Notes under the pieces: model-generated
Databases searched by the model: none
What the model was told of the DNA's origin: nothing
Seen by the model: only the letters and a program-made list of their open reading frames with translations
Assembly (NCBI GenBank): GCA_027078745.1
Contig: JALWWO010000008.1
Location: 1-60,989, forward strand
Length of the DNA stretch: 60,989 nt
Direction of reading: 5' to 3'
Source: Chromatiaceae bacterium
GTDB lineage: Bacteria; Pseudomonadota; Gammaproteobacteria; Chromatiales; Chromatiaceae
Shown here: one piece after another, positions 29,104 through 37,546 of the stretch
How the letters are laid out: each line of letters opens with the position of its first letter
Numbering within the stretch: position 1 is the stretch's first letter
Made by a program: the position numbers and the translations under genes

Positions 29104-30282
29104 CTACGAGAGTTCGGAAAGGGGGGCGGCCGTTGAAATGGAGCTGCTGACTCCGATTTCCTCATCTGTCAGATAGCAGCCCGGATCCTCCGCCCAGGGG
29201 TTGCCCGTGAGCCGCCAAGCGCGGGTGCGGCTGTTGCCGCCGCAGATCGCGCGATAGCGGCAGCGGGCACAGCGGCCTTCCAAGGGTCTGGGGCGCTGTT
29301 TCAATCCCGCCATCAGGGGGTCGGAACGGTCTTCCCAGATGGCGGAAAAGGGCCGTTCCGTCACCTTGCCCAGGCTGTAATCCCACCACATGGTATCCGG
29401 ATGCACCCGCCCTTCGTTGTCGATGTTGGCGATCTGAACGCCCGAGGCATTGCCCCCCCAGCGGGTCAGCATGGCTTGCAGTTTGGGCACGGCTTCGGGC
29501 AAATGGCGCCGGGCCCACAGGAGCAACCAGACCCCATCCGCATCATTGTTACCCGTGACAAACTCCCGCTTGCGCCCCTGTTGCACATCCTGCCAACAGG
29601 TCTCGAAGAGCAGGTTCATGGCCCAGCGAGTCTGCTGATGCTGCAGATCATCCCTGCGGTTTTTATAGCCGCGGCCCGCATAGTTCAGGTGGGAGAGGTA
29701 GAATTTTTCGATGCCCTCCGCTTCCATGAGTTGGAGCAGATCCGGCAGTTCCCGCGCATTGTCCTGGGTGAGGGTGAAGCGCAAGCCCACCTTCAGCCCC
29801 GCATCTCGACAAAGGCGCAGCCCCCGCAGGGCTTCATCAAAGGCGCCTTGACGGCGGCGGAACCGATCGTGGGTCTCGCGCAGCCCGTCCAAGCTGATGC
29901 CGATGTAATCAAACCGAGCGTTTCGGATCTCCGCCAGCTTGGCTGCATCGATCAGGGTGCCGTTCGTGGACAGCCCCACATAGAAGCCCAGAGCCTTGGC
30001 ACGGGCGCTGATCGGAAAGAGCTGGGGATGCAGCAGGGGTTCCCCGCCGGAGAGGATGAGCACGGACACGCCGTAGGCGTGCAGATCGTCCATGACGGCA
30101 AAGATCTGATCTAAGCTCAGCTCGTTGGGAAAGTCCTTATCGGCGGAAGTGGCGTAGCAGTGCTTGCAGGTGAGGTTGCACCGACGGACTAAATTCCAGA
30201 TCACCACGGGCCCCCGAAGGGCTGGGGGCTGGGGCGGTGAGGGCGATTGCAGGGCGTGCAGATAGCGGCTGAGACGGAACAT
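29104..30282 (-). CDS. nirJ: Heme d1 biosynthesis radical SAM protein NirJ
   Basis: 392 residues. The radical-SAM cluster motif is CNLTCKHC (Cys-35, -39, -42), followed by the SAM-binding LILSGGEPLLHP. A C-terminal SPASM-like cysteine set is visible (CARCRYRAICGGNSRTRAW and a later Cys). NirJ removes propionate side chains from 12,18-didecarboxysiroheme and installs the oxo groups of heme d1. It lies between the siroheme decarboxylase genes and a cytochrome gene on the same strand. The Gly-Gly-Asn-Ser-Arg-x-Arg-Ala stretch is characteristic of NirJ. Confidence 0.95.
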   Translation of the reverse strand: MFRLSRYLHALQSPSPPQPPALRGPVVIWNLVRRCNLTCKHCYATSADKDFPNELSLDQIFAVMDDLHAYGVSVLILSGGEPLLHPQLFPISARAKALGFYVGLSTNGTLIDAAKLAEIRNARFDYIGISLDGLRETHDRFRRRQGAFDEALRGLRLCRDAGLKVGLRFTLTQDNARELPDLLQLMEAEGIEKFYLSHLNYAGRGYKNRRDDLQHQQTRWAMNLLFETCWQDVQQGRKREFVTGNNDADGVWLLLWARRHLPEAVPKLQAMLTRWGGNASGVQIANIDNEGRVHPDTMWWDYSLGKVTERPFSAIWEDRSDPLMAGLKQRPRPLEGRCARCRYRAICGGNSRTRAWRLTGNPWAEDPGCYLTDEEIGVSSSISTAAPLSELS

Positions 30283-30299
30283 AAGCGGGCCTGGGTTTT

Positions 30300-31304
30300 T
30301 CAGGGCGGCGCCGGTTCGAATTGCAGGCGCAAGCCGGTTTTTTTGAGCACAGCAGTGCTGTAGAGCACTTGATGTTGGCGGCAGTGGCTGCCGAGGAGCG
30401 CGGCGATGCGGGCGGTTTTCTCCGCCACCGCCGTTCGGTCGATACCGTGCACCATAGCGAAGAGATTATAGGGCCAATGGGGCAGCCGGCGGGGGCGCAG
30501 ATAGCAATGGCTCACGAAATCCAAGGCTCCCAGCTGTTCCCCCAGGGCGATGGCCCGATCGTCCGGCACATCCCACACGGACATGCCGTTGCCCCGCAGC
30601 CCCAAGCGATAATGATTGGGCACCGCACCGATGCGGCGGATGGCACCGGTGCGCAACATCTTTTCCAACCGTCGCAACAGGGTGTCGAGGGAACAATCGA
30701 GTTGCGCCGCCAGCTGGGCATAGGGTTCGGGCACCAGGGGCAAGCCGCTCTGAGTCGCGGCCACGATCGATTGATCCAGGGCATCCAGGGGTTCTGGGGC
30801 TTCCCGTTCCCTCGGGGGCAGGCGGCGCAGGCGCAAGGCGCCGGTCTCTCCGATCTCCAGCCAGAACCCCAGGTGGAATTCCCGCTGCTTGGGGAAATCG
30901 TAGACGGGCAAGCCGGTCTCCGCTCGGATCAGGTTCAGGGTGGATTGCAAAGCGGTTTCACTGGGGACGGCGAGCACAAACCACATGTTCAGGGCATGAT
31001 CTCGGCGATAGTTGTGCGCCACCTGGGGCAGGGCGTTGACTTGGGCGGCCACGCGGTCGAACGCGGCTTCCGGCACGGACAAGGCCGCCAGGGTGAACCG
31101 CCCGCCCAAGCGCTCCGCGTCGAACAGGGGGCCGAACCGGCTCAAGATGCCCTGTGCCAACAGATCTTGAATGCTGGCGATCAGGACCCCTTCAGCAACG
31201 CCGAGCCGATCGCCGACTTGCCGATAAGGCCGCTCGCTGAGGGGGAAGCCCCCCTGAAAGCCGTTGATGAATGCCCGTTGCAGGGGGGAAAGCTTAGGGA
31301 TCAT
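30300..31304 (-). CDS. nirDL: Siroheme decarboxylase, fused NirD and NirL
   Basis: 334 residues from ATG 31304; the frame is open further upstream but only as shadow of nirH. Two Lrp/AsnC-like units are joined: residues 1-150 (helix-turn-helix, then VAHNYRRDHALNMWFVLAV) and about 175-334 (a second helix-turn-helix, then FVSHCYLRPRRLPHWPYNLFAMVHG). Conserved His/Arg of the active site are present in both. With NirG and NirH it converts siroheme to 12,18-didecarboxysiroheme. In Pseudomonas nirD and nirL are separate genes; fusions occur in some bacteria. The start overlaps nirH by 11 bases. Confidence 0.93.
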   Translation of the reverse strand: MIPKLSPLQRAFINGFQGGFPLSERPYRQVGDRLGVAEGVLIASIQDLLAQGILSRFGPLFDAERLGGRFTLAALSVPEAAFDRVAAQVNALPQVAHNYRRDHALNMWFVLAVPSETALQSTLNLIRAETGLPVYDFPKQREFHLGFWLEIGETGALRLRRLPPREREAPEPLDALDQSIVAATQSGLPLVPEPYAQLAAQLDCSLDTLLRRLEKMLRTGAIRRIGAVPNHYRLGLRGNGMSVWDVPDDRAIALGEQLGALDFVSHCYLRPRRLPHWPYNLFAMVHGIDRTAVAEKTARIAALLGSHCRQHQVLYSTAVLKKTGLRLQFEPAPP

Positions 31305-31770
31305 AGCAGGCGCCCCGCTGGCGGAACCGCCGTCCGCTGAACAGGACGGCATGATCGATGTCTTTGAGCTGGCAGCGCTGCCGGATCTCCTCCACCTGGG
31401 CCAGCACGGCTTCCCGATCTCGCCCATGGATCATGGTGAAAAGATTGTAGGGCCAATGGGGCGGGCGAGGCGGTCGGCGATAGCAGAGAGTAACGAAGGG
31501 CAATCGGCCCATCTGTCGCCCCAATTCCGCAACCCGTTCTTCGGGAATCGCCCAAACCACCATGGCATTGGCCCGATAGCCCAGCTCCTGATGGCGCACC
31601 ACCACCCCGAAGCGCTTGATGGTACCCTGTTCGCGGAGCCGTTGAATGCCCTCGATCACCTGGGCTTCCGGCCATCCCAACCGCTTCGCCAGGGCTGCAT
31701 AGGGACGGGGTTCCAGGGGCAAACCCTGCTGGATGGCCCGGATCAACGCCGTTTCTTCCTCTGCTCTCAT
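31294..31770 (-). CDS. nirH: Siroheme decarboxylase subunit NirH
   Basis: 158 residues from ATG 31770, which shares one base with the nirG stop (TGATG); two GTG codons lie just upstream. Lrp/AsnC-like fold: N-terminal helix-turn-helix (YAALAKRLGWPEAQVIEGIQ) and C-terminal ligand domain with FVTLCYRRPPRPPHWPYNLFTMIHG. This matches the NirL/NirH type. The His found in the equivalent SHCY site of NirL is Leu here (TLCY), so the two are not catalytically equal. H rather than L is assigned because L is fused to D in the next gene. Confidence 0.88.
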   Translation of the reverse strand: MRAEEETALIRAIQQGLPLEPRPYAALAKRLGWPEAQVIEGIQRLREQGTIKRFGVVVRHQELGYRANAMVVWAIPEERVAELGRQMGRLPFVTLCYRRPPRPPHWPYNLFTMIHGRDREAVLAQVEEIRQRCQLKDIDHAVLFSGRRFRQRGACYDP

Positions 31771-32237
31771 CACCACAGGGGAAATCCGAGATCGATGTGA
31801 TAGGACTCGATCATGGGCAGGTCCAGGACGGGAAGGCCGGTGCGCTGCTGGATCTCTTGCAGGATCTCCTGAATGCGGGTTTCATCCGAAGCGGTCAGCA
31901 CGAACCAGAGGTTGAACGGATGCAACCGCTCATAATTGTGATTGACCTCCCGAAATGAATTGACCAAGGCGGCCACGGATTCCAAGCGCTCCGGCGGTAC
32001 TGCCATGGCAGCCAGGGTGCTCGCGCCCACGCGCTGCGGCTGTAAGACCGGACCGATCCGACTGATGGCACCTGCTTGCATCAGGCGTTTCAGGCGCTGC
32101 AACACCTGCGCTTCCGAAATGCCGAGCTGTTTCCCGATCGCCGCAAAGGGCTGGGGACACAGGGGAAAATCCCGCTGAAAATCGTTGAGCAACCGCCGGT
32201 CGATGGCATCGAGCGTCAGGGACGCACTCGCCTTCAT
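31770..32237 (-). CDS. nirG: Siroheme decarboxylase subunit NirG
   Basis: 155 residues. The N-terminal helix-turn-helix (FAAIGKQLGISEAQVLQRLKRL) is followed by the AsnC-like domain with EVNHNYERLHPFNLWFVLTA, the NirD/NirG type. Since NirD is fused to NirL here, this is NirG. It acts with NirDL and NirH on siroheme in the cytosol. It overlaps nirF by four bases and nirH by a shared TGATG. Confidence 0.88.
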   Translation of the reverse strand: MKASASLTLDAIDRRLLNDFQRDFPLCPQPFAAIGKQLGISEAQVLQRLKRLMQAGAISRIGPVLQPQRVGASTLAAMAVPPERLESVAALVNSFREVNHNYERLHPFNLWFVLTASDETRIQEILQEIQQRTGLPVLDLPMIESYHIDLGFPLW

Positions 32238-33397
32238 AGCCCGATCTTGTGTGCCCGAGCAGTCAGGAAGATCCCGCTGGGTTTCTTTGCGGGGAGCGTC
32301 GCCCGGCGAGTGAAGCTGGCGGTGTCATAGACTTGCACCTCGTTTCCATCCCGCACGGATACCCAGACTTCTTCCCCCTTGGGTTCGAACTCCATGTGGA
32401 GCACGGCGGGCCCTGGATGGAGTTCCTTGACCAAAGCTAGAGTCTCGGTGTCGAAGACCTGAATATAGCCATTATCGGGGAAGGCGAAGTTCACCCAGAT
32501 TTGCCGACCGTCCGGTCGCGCCATGACGAACACCGGCTGCCCTTTGACAGGGATTTGCCCGATCTCCTGCCAGGTTTCCATGTCGATGACCAGCACCGCA
32601 TGATGACCCATGGCAGGTACGAAGGCCCGTCGGCCCGCCACCGCCCAGCCCTCCAAATGGGGCATCTTGTAGACGGGCAGCCGCTGATCCCCCTTGCCGT
32701 AATGGGGCAGGATGCGGCGCACGCCCGCTTCCGGATGCCAGAGATCCAGCAGAGCGAAGCCGTCTTCCCCGAAGAGTCCGGCGATGTAATAGCGACCATC
32801 CGGCGTGATGAGGGCATCGTAGGGATTCTTGCCGATCTGGGCAAAGCGCTGGACTTTGGGATGCTGGGGATCCTTGAGATCCGCAATCCAGATCTCCCCC
32901 GCATCCCAGAGGCTGAAGACAAAGCGGTTGCCCGGCGCATCCACCAGGCCCACCACTTTAGACCGCTCGCCCCGCTCGCCATAGGTGGCGGGAATGTCCG
33001 CGACGAGATCCAAGGTCTCGGTATCGAAGATCCGCACTCCCCCGGGCGCATAGTTGGACACGGCGACCAGGCGCCCATCCTGAGAGATGGCCCCGCCGAT
33101 GCTGTTGCCCCCCTGCTGAATGCGCTTGACCAGGCGTTTTTCCAGGAGATCCACCTTGGAAAGCCCCCCGTCCCGACCGAACACGAAGGCATAGCGTTCA
33201 TCTCGGGAGAAGACCACCGAGGCATGGGAGAGATCCCCCAGCCCCTCGATCCGACCCAAGGCGGTATTGCCGGAGGTTTCGATGAGCTGTACGGAACCCG
33301 ATGCCCGTTCGATGAAGAGGCCCAGATCGCCGGTGCCCCGCTCGGCGAAGCTCTGCAAGGGTAGGAGGAGAGAGAGAAGGAATGGGTAGAATTTCAT
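32234..33397 (-). CDS. nirF: Heme d1 biosynthesis protein NirF
   Basis: 387 residues from ATG 33397, which overlaps the nirC stop (ATGA). Signal peptide (MKFYPFLLSLLLPLQSFA), then a d1-type eight-bladed propeller: VVFSRDERYAFVFGRDGGLSKVDL, AISQDGRLVAVSNYAPGGVRIFDTET, and the closing VSVRDGNEVQVYDTASF. NirF is a periplasmic or lipoprotein factor that binds late d1 precursors and partners NirN and NirS. No lipobox Cys is visible, so this one should be soluble or held by an uncleaved signal. Confidence 0.93.
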   Translation of the reverse strand: MKFYPFLLSLLLPLQSFAERGTGDLGLFIERASGSVQLIETSGNTALGRIEGLGDLSHASVVFSRDERYAFVFGRDGGLSKVDLLEKRLVKRIQQGGNSIGGAISQDGRLVAVSNYAPGGVRIFDTETLDLVADIPATYGERGERSKVVGLVDAPGNRFVFSLWDAGEIWIADLKDPQHPKVQRFAQIGKNPYDALITPDGRYYIAGLFGEDGFALLDLWHPEAGVRRILPHYGKGDQRLPVYKMPHLEGWAVAGRRAFVPAMGHHAVLVIDMETWQEIGQIPVKGQPVFVMARPDGRQIWVNFAFPDNGYIQVFDTETLALVKELHPGPAVLHMEFEPKGEEVWVSVRDGNEVQVYDTASFTRRATLPAKKPSGIFLTARAHKIGL

Positions 33398-33717
33398 GGT
33401 TGTTCCAGGAGAAGATTCGCCAGCCAGACAGCTTCTTCCTCCGTGAGGAAGGGTTGCCAGGGGGGCATGGCGGTGCCCGGCCGACCGAAGAGGATGGTGG
33501 CGGCGAGATAGGAAGCCGGTTTTCCCGCGAGGGCAGCCCCCCGCAGCGGCGGCCCTAAGCCCCCGCGCAGTCGAAGCCCATGGCAGGAACCGCAATCCTG
33601 TGCTAACAGATTTCGCAATTCCGCCTGCCGTGCTGGGGAGATCTGAATGTATTCCGTGGCAGACAGGCCCGTCATGAACAGAATTCCCAACGCCAAAGCG
33701 CCCAATCGTTTGCCCAT
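33394..33717 (-). CDS. nirC: Small periplasmic c-type cytochrome NirC
   Basis: 107 residues from ATG 33717, with GAGGAGG upstream as ribosome-binding site; the frame is open further up but without signal-peptide logic. Signal peptide (about 1-21), heme site CGSCH (residues 42-46), axial Met in GTAMPPW. This is the class I cytochrome c55x encoded with nirF in denitrifiers; it can pass electrons to or from NirN/NirS. First gene of the minus-strand operon, divergent from nirN with 94 bases between start codons. Confidence 0.9.
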   Translation of the reverse strand: MGKRLGALALGILFMTGLSATEYIQISPARQAELRNLLAQDCGSCHGLRLRGGLGPPLRGAALAGKPASYLAATILFGRPGTAMPPWQPFLTEEEAVWLANLLLEQP

Positions 33718-33811
33718 CCCCGATACCTCCTCAACGCCTGCGCGCATTCTAAACGAAGGGCAATGCCCTATGATAGATGAATCGCAGTGGCCCAAATGTT
33801 CAGGAAGTCCG
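33718..33811. promoter_or_regulatory. Divergent nirC/nirN promoter region
   Basis: 94 bases that must drive both nirC (leftward) and nirN (rightward). I searched for an FNR/DNR box (TTGAT-N4-ATCAA) and see none that fits on either strand; TGAT followed by GAATC is only a partial match. AGGAAG precedes nirN and GAGGAGG precedes nirC. Confidence 0.45.
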
Positions 33812-35296
33812 ATGTTTCTCTCCTTATTTTTCCTCTCGATCAGCCTTTTGTTTTCCTCTTTCGCCCATGGGGAAGTCGATTCGATCTATCAGCAGCATTG
33901 CGCGGCATGTCATGGGAAGGATCGGCTGGGCGGCATGGGACCGGCGCTGCTGCCGGAAAATCTCAGGCGGCTGAAACCCAAGGCGGCGGCTCAGGTGATC
34001 GCCCAGGGCCGCCCCGCTACCCAGATGCCCGCCTTTGGGGAGAAGCTCCCGCCGGATCAGATCGCCGCTTTGGTCGAGTGGATCTATACCCCGCTGCCGG
34101 AACCCCCTGTCTGGGATCTGGCCGAGATCCGCGCCAGCCAGAAGATCTACTATGCCCCGGGCACCCTGCCGGATCAGCCCAAATTCCAAGCGGACATAGA
34201 CAATCTCTTCCTCGTCGTGGAGCTGGGGGATCATCATGCAACCCTGCTGGACGGCGATCGCTTCACACCCATCTACCGCTTTCCCACCCGCCGCGCTCTG
34301 CACGGAGGCCCGAAATATGCAGCAGGGGGGCGATATGTCTACTTCGCCTCTCGGGACGGCTGGATCAGCAAGTTCGACATTTTCAATCTGACCTATGTGG
34401 CGGAGATCCGGGCCGGCATCAACACCCGCAACTTGGCTGTCTCTCCGGATGGGCGCTATGTGCTGGTGGCGAACTATCTTCCCCATACACTGGTCTTGCT
34501 GGAGGGGGGGGATCTCTCCCCCATTCGGGTGATTCCAGTGCGAGGTGCCCAGGGGAAGAGTTCTCGGGTGAGCGCAGTCTATGCAGCCCCATCCCGCCAT
34601 AGCTTCATCGCCGCCCTAAAGGACATTCCCGAAGTTTGGGAACTGTCCTATGCGGGGGAAGCGGTGGAAAAAGGATTCCCCGTCCGGCGCATTCTCCTGA
34701 AGGATTATCTGGATGATTTCTTCCTCACTCAGGACGAGCGCAAGATCGTAGGCACGGCCCGCGATGGCACTGGACAAGTGGTGGATCTGGACTCGGGGCA
34801 GGCTCTCGAAAAGATCGCATTGCCCGGGATGCCCCACCTGAGTTCTGCCATCACCTGGCCGTATGGAGATACCTGGGTGCTCGCCACCCCGAACATTAAA
34901 ACGGGTAAGGTCAGCGTCATCGATCTGAAGACCTGGCGGGCCATCCGAGAGATTCCCACCCTAGGACCTGGCTTCTTCCTGCGCAGCCACGAGCGTTCCC
35001 CCTATGCCTGGGTAGATGTGTTCTTCGGCAAGGACCGAGATGCCATGCAGGTCATCGACAAGAAAACCTTGCGCATTGTCAAAACCCTGCGGCCCGCACC
35101 GGGCAAGACCTCGGCCCATGTGGAATTCACCAAAGACGGCCGCTATGCCCTGGTGAGTATCTGGGATCTGGACGGCGCCTTGGTCGTCTACGACGGGAAC
35201 ACGCTGGAAGAGGTCAAGCGGATCCCCATGAAGAAACCCTCGGGCAAATACAATGTGCACAACAAGCTCAGCCGCTCTGCGGGAACCAGCCATTGA
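33812..35296 (+). CDS. nirN: Dihydro-heme d1 dehydrogenase NirN (cytochrome c/d1 protein)
   Basis: 494 residues from ATG 33812 (AGGAAG before it), nearly the length of Pseudomonas NirN. Signal peptide to about residue 20, heme c site CAACH (30-34) with axial Met in ATQMPAF, then an eight-bladed d1 propeller. NirN and NirS share this architecture, but NirS has two distal-pocket His. At the matching places here the sequence reads FFLTQDERKIV and HLSSAITWPYG, without them, so nitrite reduction is unlikely. The ending KKPSGKYNVHNKLSRSAGTSH also fits NirN. The role is oxidation of dihydro-d1 to heme d1 in the periplasm. Confidence 0.87.
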   Translation: MFLSLFFLSISLLFSSFAHGEVDSIYQQHCAACHGKDRLGGMGPALLPENLRRLKPKAAAQVIAQGRPATQMPAFGEKLPPDQIAALVEWIYTPLPEPPVWDLAEIRASQKIYYAPGTLPDQPKFQADIDNLFLVVELGDHHATLLDGDRFTPIYRFPTRRALHGGPKYAAGGRYVYFASRDGWISKFDIFNLTYVAEIRAGINTRNLAVSPDGRYVLVANYLPHTLVLLEGGDLSPIRVIPVRGAQGKSSRVSAVYAAPSRHSFIAALKDIPEVWELSYAGEAVEKGFPVRRILLKDYLDDFFLTQDERKIVGTARDGTGQVVDLDSGQALEKIALPGMPHLSSAITWPYGDTWVLATPNIKTGKVSVIDLKTWRAIREIPTLGPGFFLRSHERSPYAWVDVFFGKDRDAMQVIDKKTLRIVKTLRPAPGKTSAHVEFTKDGRYALVSIWDLDGALVVYDGNTLEEVKRIPMKKPSGKYNVHNKLSRSAGTSH

Positions 35297-35394
35297 ATCT
35301 TCAGTTAGGTTTTGATTCCTGGGTGCTTTGTGCTATCTATGAAAACCCGAGACTGAAGCTCGGTGCTACTCCCTTTGAACTCCTGGAGATCTCC

Positions 35395-35838
35395 ATGAAG
35401 ACTGTTTCCAAAACCCTCAGCACGCTGTTCGGTGCTGTCCTCGCCGGTGCTTTTTCCATGAACCTGTCCGCCGGTGAAAATCCCTTCACCTTCTCCCAGC
35501 TCGGCGCGGGCACCCTGCAATTGGCCGGCTCTGGTTATATGAAATGCGGCGGCGCGATGATGGAAGGTATGTCCGGCCAGATGAAATGCGGCGGCGCGAT
35601 GATGGAAGGCATGTCCGGCCAGATGAAATGCGGCGGCAAGATGATGGAAAGCATGCCTGCTCAGATGAAATGCGGCGGCAAGATGATGGAAAGCATGCCT
35701 GCTCAGATGAAATGCGGCGGCAAGATGATGGAAAGCATGCCTGCTCAGATGAAATGCGGCAGCAAGATGATGGAAAACATGCCTGCGCAGATGAAGGGAG
35801 GCAGGTGTGGTACCGGTAAATGCGGCATCGGTAGATAA
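35395..35838 (+). CDS. Secreted Met/Lys/Cys/Gly tandem-repeat protein, HvfA-like metallophore precursor candidate
   Basis: 147 residues from ATG 35395 (GGAGATC upstream). Signal peptide (KTVSKTLSTLFGAVLAGAFSM, cleavage near LSAGE), then ENPFTFSQLGAGTLQLAGSGY, which resembles the leader region of HvfA-type precursors. Then come six 14-residue repeats MKCGG(A/K)MMEGM or MESMPAQ, and a tail GGRCGTGKCGIGR like the (E)GKCG motifs modified by DUF692/MNIO enzymes. The mature part is rich in Cys, Met, Lys and Gly and has no globular core. No DUF692 or DUF2063 gene lies in the window. It sits 98 bases after nirN. Alternatives are a copper- or heavy-metal-binding protein without modification. The class is inferred from composition and layout only. 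Confidence 0.75.
   Translation: MKTVSKTLSTLFGAVLAGAFSMNLSAGENPFTFSQLGAGTLQLAGSGYMKCGGAMMEGMSGQMKCGGAMMEGMSGQMKCGGKMMESMPAQMKCGGKMMESMPAQMKCGGKMMESMPAQMKCGSKMMENMPAQMKGGRCGTGKCGIGR
35539..35790 (+). repeat. Six tandem 42-bp repeats inside the secreted repeat protein gene
   Basis: Units start at 35539, 35581, 35623, 35665, 35707 and 35749. Units 1 and 2 differ at one base; units 3, 4 and 5 are identical; unit 6 has a few changes. Each unit begins ATGAAATGCGGC. The unit length is a multiple of three, so the array can grow or shrink without losing frame. The near-identity indicates recent amplification. Confidence 0.97.
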
Positions 35839-35842
35839 GGCT

Positions 35843-35869
35843 TTCCCCCCCATCTTTCGGATGGGGGAA
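35843..35869. terminator. Hairpin between convergent genes (putative terminator)
   Basis: CCCCCATC (35847-35854) and GATGGGGG (35860-35867) form an eight-base stem with a TTTCG loop, extended by TT/AA pairs. It lies between the repeat-protein gene and pgm, which converge. No long T run follows on either side, so it may need Rho or work as a bidirectional block. Confidence 0.55.
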
Positions 35870-35872
35870 CCC

Positions 35873-37546
<1,674 letters not shown>

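Follow-up and report, generated by a model that had tools for sequence, protein, structure and literature searches.

The window analysed here, 60,989 nucleotides long, is the entire contig C8 of a draft Chromatiaceae genome (2.18 Mb in 24 contigs, 97.17% complete and 0.24% contaminated). It carries a gene for a Met-Lys-Cys-Gly repeat protein that stands alone, flanked by a heme d1 cluster on one side and pgm on the other (Table 1). The reading frame extends from an ATG at 35395 to a TAA at 35836–35838, and a promoter scan of positions 35200–36000 returned no sigma-70-like promoter. The upstream heme d1 cluster encodes NirJ, AhbA/AhbB-type siroheme decarboxylase proteins and cytochrome c/beta-propeller-like proteins (weak matches). 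The minus-strand stretch of the cluster, NirJ included, occupies positions 29107–33397; a 375-residue AhbA/AhbB-type protein (30303–31427, minus strand) matches both subunits and overlaps a 160-residue AhbB-type open reading frame (ORF; 31297–31776). A His-rich ORF of 182 residues on the minus strand (35305–35853), opposite the repeat gene, is most likely a by-product of the repeat sequence.

Table 1 Features of the repeat gene and its flanks
Feature	Position	Strand	Basis
Upstream neighbour: cytochrome c and beta-propeller-like protein, beside the heme d1 cluster	33647..35293	+	Weak matches, below cut-off
GGAG, likely ribosome-binding site, six bases 5' of the ATG	35385..35388	+	By eye
Met-Lys-Cys-Gly repeat protein, 147 residues, probably secreted, HvfA/Buf_EGKCG precursor homologue	35395..35838	+	Sequence and profile
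Signal-peptide-like N-terminus, residues 1–27	35395..35475	+	By eye; aligns with 19 precursor N-termini
Leader ENPFTFSQLGAGTLQLAGSG, residues 28–47, homologous to NPF...L..GYMQ(L/V)A	35476..35535	+	Profile and alignment
Six 42-bp (14-residue) repeats, MKCG(G/S)(A/K)MMExM(S/P)(G/A)Q	35539..35790	+	Tandem Repeats Finder and translation
C-terminal tail MKGGRCGTGKCGIGR, two further Cys-Gly, contains CGTGKCG	35791..35835	+	Translation
GC-rich hairpin in the gap separating the convergent genes, without a T run	35847..35867	.	By eye; not among predicted terminators
Downstream neighbour, converging: phosphoglucomutase (pgm)	35876..37507	-	NF005737, 946.6 bits

The N-terminal segment of the protein looks like a Sec signal peptide, as judged by eye and by alignment, and the leader that follows opens into a core of tandem repeats (Tandem Repeats Finder: 35539–35795, period 42, 6.1 copies, 95% matches, 0% indels, score 398). 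The units, in exact register, are MKCGGAMMEGMSGQ (two copies), MKCGGKMMESMPAQ (three copies) and MKCGSKMMENMPAQ (one copy), and each contributes a single Cys and four Met. Beyond position 26 (121 residues) the protein has 25 Met and eight Cys in all. The first-pass annotation had placed the gene exactly, and the signal-like N-terminus, ENPF leader and CGTGKCG tail that it described are present. Its count of six MKCGG repeats holds for the 14-residue units, seen both by Tandem Repeats Finder and in translation, but MKCGG itself occurs in five of them and the sixth reads MKCGS. A chance repeat or non-coding ORF was rejected on the leader homology and on the ribosome-binding site. The single-sequence AlphaFold model has a mean pLDDT of 41.1 and was unusable for fold comparison.

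Searching with the protein against its own genome and 54 relatives (55 in total) gave matches in seven genomes, its own included. Six foreign loci (L002–L007) encode leader-bearing KCG proteins, each directly adjoining an MNIO gene; a further foreign match (L008) has no KCG-rich protein at its locus, and a related-locus search in genome contigs returned no confirmed relative. A leave-one-out full-length model, built from 19 foreign MNIO-adjacent precursors with the window protein excluded, scores the protein at 60.7 bits. None of 1,000 copies with a scrambled mature part reaches this score (maximum 11.9 bits), nor does any of 1,000 with only the leader scrambled (56.2 bits) or of 1,000 with only the core scrambled (38.6 bits). 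The same model gives 100.5 bits for an orphan precursor in a relative (G104), 37.8 bits for a Rhodocyclales protein (L058), and 24.6 and 15.0 bits for two leaderless Campylobacterota KCG proteins, so that the KCG core alone contributes some of the score. When 25 other leaders are modelled, the post-signal leader obtains 13.2 bits, a score that none of 2,000 shuffles attains (1,635 scored at all; best 12.4 bits), and leader plus signal region together score 28.6 bits, attained by one of 2,000. The usual leader of 26 MNIO-adjacent precursors, NPF....(L/M)..GY(M/L)Q(L/V)A, aligns with ENPFTFSQLGAGTLQLA, in which GYMQ has been altered to GTLQ. Since no leader-scrambled copy attains the leave-one-out score, the protein is, judged by its sequence, a homologue of the HvfA/Buf_EGKCG (captophorin) precursors in leader as well as core, which places the resemblance to HvfA-type precursors remarked on in the first-pass annotation on a footing of homology.

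The set of 26 precursors was freed of same-genome duplicates (L135, L140, L146, L148 and L149) and junk ORFs, with L083 added by hand and two N-termini re-cut; 25 entered the post-signal model. It contains near-redundancy, L083 and L122 being identical proteins and L014 and L056 near-identical. The local MNIO model was built from 21 of 30 MNIO loci.

Comparison with precursor models, which the first-pass annotation had proposed, gave a divided outcome: the models built here match the protein, but the curated NCBIfam cut-offs are missed. The HvfA equivalog NF050188 gives 18.8 bits, below its cut-off of 95, and the protein is absent from matches to the KCGExKCG domain model NF050137 at E up to 1. 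Among five comparison proteins none reaches the NF050188 cut-off and three reach that of NF050137, which the MNIO-adjacent L088 misses (9.8 bits versus a cut-off of 19.5). A Pfam search at E up to 10 listed two matches, neither of them DUF2282 (the Bufferin Buf1 domain), which had also been put forward for comparison. Matches to Galaxin_repeat, DUF3221, Nop10 and MXAN_6577 fell below their own cut-offs and were taken as compositional.

No match to PF05114 (MNIO, DUF692) or to its partner PF09836 (DUF2063) was detected at E ≤ 0.001, either in the window, as previously noted, or across the whole draft assembly. A lax search (E up to 10) with the whole MNIO protein from L014 returned two stretches (E = 0.024 and 0.113; 14.1 and 11.9 bits), compared with 394.5 and 379.8 bits in the positive-control relatives (E = 1.1e-113 in G010 and 2.7e-118 in G014). 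A hidden MNIO was rejected, as the ORFs containing the two stretches resemble, by eye, a permease and FolD. Within the limits of the draft, the genome encodes neither enzyme. The first-pass annotation had left two alternatives, an enzyme acting in trans or an unmodified protein; the former is disfavoured by these searches, and the latter is now the better of the two.

A precursor without an MNIO anywhere in the genome is unusual for the family. A1-type precursors (E ≤ 0.001) occur in 69 of 209 foreign family genomes, and 67 of the 69 encode an MNIO, compared with 80 of the 140 genomes that have no precursor match (Fisher p = 7e-11, a value that ignores shared ancestry). The A1 profile was built from the 19 foreign precursors together with the window protein, and its match to the window's own genome is by construction. 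Precursors without an MNIO occur in G104 (one contig, 100% complete) and G149 (73% complete). For at most 19 of the 77 family precursor places considered (E ≤ 2e-15, with the window gene excluded), no MNIO is listed within 3 kb; this is an upper bound, since MNIO matches were listed down to 329 bits and some contigs (G009) are short. Standing apart from MNIO is thus no sign, taken alone, that the enzyme is absent. Among fully assembled genomes with Buf_EGKCG genes, 67 of 2,583 have no MNIO according to Table 3 of PMC12452194. The orphan in G104 (L194/L204) is a stand-alone classical EGKCG precursor with the same leader type and is not Met-rich; rechecking its genome by the lax MNIO search gave E = 0.22. 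It lies at about 4860728–4861015 (L204 being G104:C1:4855000-4866000), downstream of a catalase-peroxidase-like gene (by eye, signal-like N-terminus).

Methionine makes up 21.0% of the window protein after the NPF motif, compared with 0–14.3% in the 26 MNIO-adjacent precursors (counted from residue 26 where the motif is absent: L020, L119 and L155). Together with the six repeats, this bears out the earlier description of a repeat-expanded, Met-rich variant. Acidic residues account for 5.0% after NPF, versus 7.7–25.4% in the MNIO-adjacent precursors. The tandem MKCG pattern is found in two of 210 genomes of the family, its own and G127 (a chance match), and in three of 369 genomes of the class: its own, G387, whose DNA reads by eye as in Methylococcus L124, and G467 (a chance match at the same place as L082). 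Viral contigs yielded 15 pattern stretches, with no leader-type protein among those translating in frame.

Named genomes, mostly metagenome-assembled genomes (MAGs), contain 117 MKCG stretches. From these, 42 foreign loci were picked by eye for an MNIO tally (L041 serving for taxonomy only), leaving out chance and zinc-ribbon-like matches and some Cys-rich proteins (L053, L084 and L094); the groups were assigned by eye, Pfam identity was checked for six proteins, and the MNIO counts carry no completeness figures. Twelve loci are of leader type, with an MNIO in 11 of the 12 genomes; nine are from Methylococcales, all MNIO-adjacent. Met beside KCG is therefore compatible with MNIO, in agreement with the FonBC assays of PMC13097082. 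Within this group L020 has no NPF, and the NPF leader at L121 sits on a neighbouring precursor rather than on the MKCG protein. L058, from a Rhodocyclales MAG, may parallel the window gene: it is a short NPF-leader MKCG protein whose leader is altered (GTQLA), and its genome gives no MNIO match.

The motif also occurs on other proteins. Twelve cytochrome-c-like proteins from Campylobacterota MAGs end in MKCG/KCG repeats, and none of their genomes has an MNIO match (L021, L027, L029, L038, L049, L065, L080, L097, L105, L115, L117 and L123; grouped by eye, Pfam checked for two of the 12, L029 cut short and without CxxCH). Known copper proteins carry such stretches too, at the C-terminus of two PCu(A)C chaperones (L044 and L079) and internally in two multicopper oxidases (L023 and L026), with an MNIO in two of the four genomes. 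Of the 16 genomes behind these three protein groups, 14 have no MNIO match. Among the 13 genomes that encode other small MKCG proteins, most of which look secreted, two have an MNIO.

MNIO precursors are generally taken as modified. For those without a linked MNIO, Antoine et al. (PMC12452194) left open whether an enzyme from another locus acts on them or whether there is no modification. A precursor that keeps its leader, has a Met-rich repeat core and lies in a genome without a detectable MNIO makes this question directly testable, through Cu(I) binding by the unmodified protein and its status as a substrate of captophorin enzymes. No description of a Met-rich MKCG variant was found in the literature listings searched, which cover few subscription papers, and a term search found no methionine or Met-rich wording in the main texts of PMC12452194 and PMC13097082. 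The chemistry given in the first-pass annotation, conversion of Cys to oxazolone/thioamide pairs, has since been revised to 5-thiooxazole in published accounts (PMC13097082 and PMC13419390).

We give about even weight to the reading that the gene is a stand-alone descendant of a captophorin precursor, persisting without the MNIO–DUF2063 pair, and that its product would be a periplasmic Cu(I) sponge with unmodified Cys and Met. The protein would be exported by Sec to the periplasm, on a signal judged by eye, and without MNIO its eight Cys would stay as thiols. These, with 25 Met thioethers and the M-x-C and MM-x-x-M spacing, could form many Cu(I) sites in a flexible soft-metal sponge that buffers or stores copper, the thioethers compensating for the absent 5-thiooxazoles. 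Copper is proposed as the ligand because the same motif occurs on PCu(A)C and multicopper oxidases. The captophorin leader, the KCG core, the Met-rich repeat expansion and the lack of an MNIO or DUF2063 match favour this reading, as do the second orphan in G104, the published base rate of MNIO-less genomes and the parallel of MKCG stretches on copper proteins and cytochromes c. Counting against it, an MNIO could lie in the missing 3% of the assembly, the leader is retained, presumably for its role with an enzyme partner, and free thiols may oxidise in the periplasm. Moreover, Met-rich MKCG cores adjoin MNIO at nine Methylococcales loci, so that Met enrichment is no proof of enzyme-free life. 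Because the searches for both enzyme genes came back empty, the protein is not classed here as a captophorin or RiPP; it may nevertheless function as one.

It is unlikely that the protein is instead an ordinary captophorin precursor whose MNIO–DUF2063 pair lies in the unassembled part of the genome and converts its Cys to copper-binding 5-thiooxazoles. The near-universal presence of MNIO in foreign family genomes with such a precursor (67 of 69), the unlinked precursor places (at most 19 of 77), the MKCGA-type cores that adjoin MNIO in Methylococcales and an assembly of 97.17% completeness in 24 contigs speak for it. In the FonBC substrate panel reported in PMC13097082, Pro, as well as Arg at motif position 1, blocks the enzyme, the other changes tested at positions 1–2 are tolerated, and only Gly or Ala is functional after Cys; Lys3 and Gly5 are kept in the window protein. 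Both enzyme genes must, however, have been missed. As a rough estimate, a fraction of at most 0.25 unlinked multiplied by 0.03 missing gives about 0.7%, against a base rate of 2.6–2.9% for true orphans. Very roughly, the odds would be 3–4 to 1 that the missing 3% does not contain an MNIO unlinked to this precursor.

A relic, in which the precursor has outlived its lost enzyme and now drifts without a function, is quite improbable. The change of GYMQ to GTLQ, the stand-alone position between the heme d1 cluster and pgm and the lack of a detected promoter would suit such a relic, but the frame, ribosome-binding site and leader are intact, Cys and Met are kept in six of six repeats, and the expansion is in perfect register. 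Near-identical repeats are also expected from recent duplication, and repeat conservation is thus no proof of selection.

Heme d1 (nitrite reduction) genes lie nearby, and Cys and Met are, in general, soft ligands as well as targets of oxidants. Even so, it is very unlikely that the thiols and thioethers serve to trap oxidants, nitric oxide or a soft metal other than copper (Hg or Ag), given that the characterised homologues described in PMC13097082 and PMC12452194 are copper peptides, that the same motif occurs on PCu(A)C and multicopper oxidases, and that the nir-type adjacency may be chance.

The enzyme-free reading can be extended, tentatively and with more doubt than belief, to a broader class of enzyme-free captophorins. 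Lineages that lost MNIO would have kept the exported KCG scaffold and rebuilt copper affinity genetically, through added Met thioethers and repeat multiplication, and Met-Lys-Cys-Gly might be a portable, unmodified copper-binding repeat that Campylobacterota and other groups have also attached to cytochromes c, PCu(A)C and multicopper oxidases.

Csp and Met-rich copper proteins store Cu(I) at multiple sites by thiols or thioethers. The likeness of the window protein to them lies in the proposed storage mode; no sequence link was found. The cytochrome c, PCu(A)C and multicopper oxidase stretches, likened by motif alone, resemble it in bearing MKCG/KCG repeats on exported-type proteins, but are joined to folded domains and have no ENPF leader. 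The EGKCG precursor of G104 has the same leader type and likewise no MNIO in its one-contig genome, and differs in its classical core, which is not Met-rich. With the HvfA/Buf_EGKCG/oxazolin/captophorin precursors (fontiphorin FonA and gonophorin NgoA) the protein shares the signal-like N-terminus, the NPF-type leader and repeated Lys-Cys-Gly; unlike them, it has QMKCGG in a 14-residue Met-rich unit in place of EGKCG, lies below the NCBIfam cut-offs and comes from a genome without an MNIO or DUF2063 match. The Methylococcales MKCGA precursors (L014, L056, L083, L088, L093, L096, L103, L122 and L124) differ from it in having two to three MKCG units, 9.0–14.3% Met and an adjacent MNIO, and share with it Met beside KCG, Met-rich cores and the NPF-type leader (SPF in L056).
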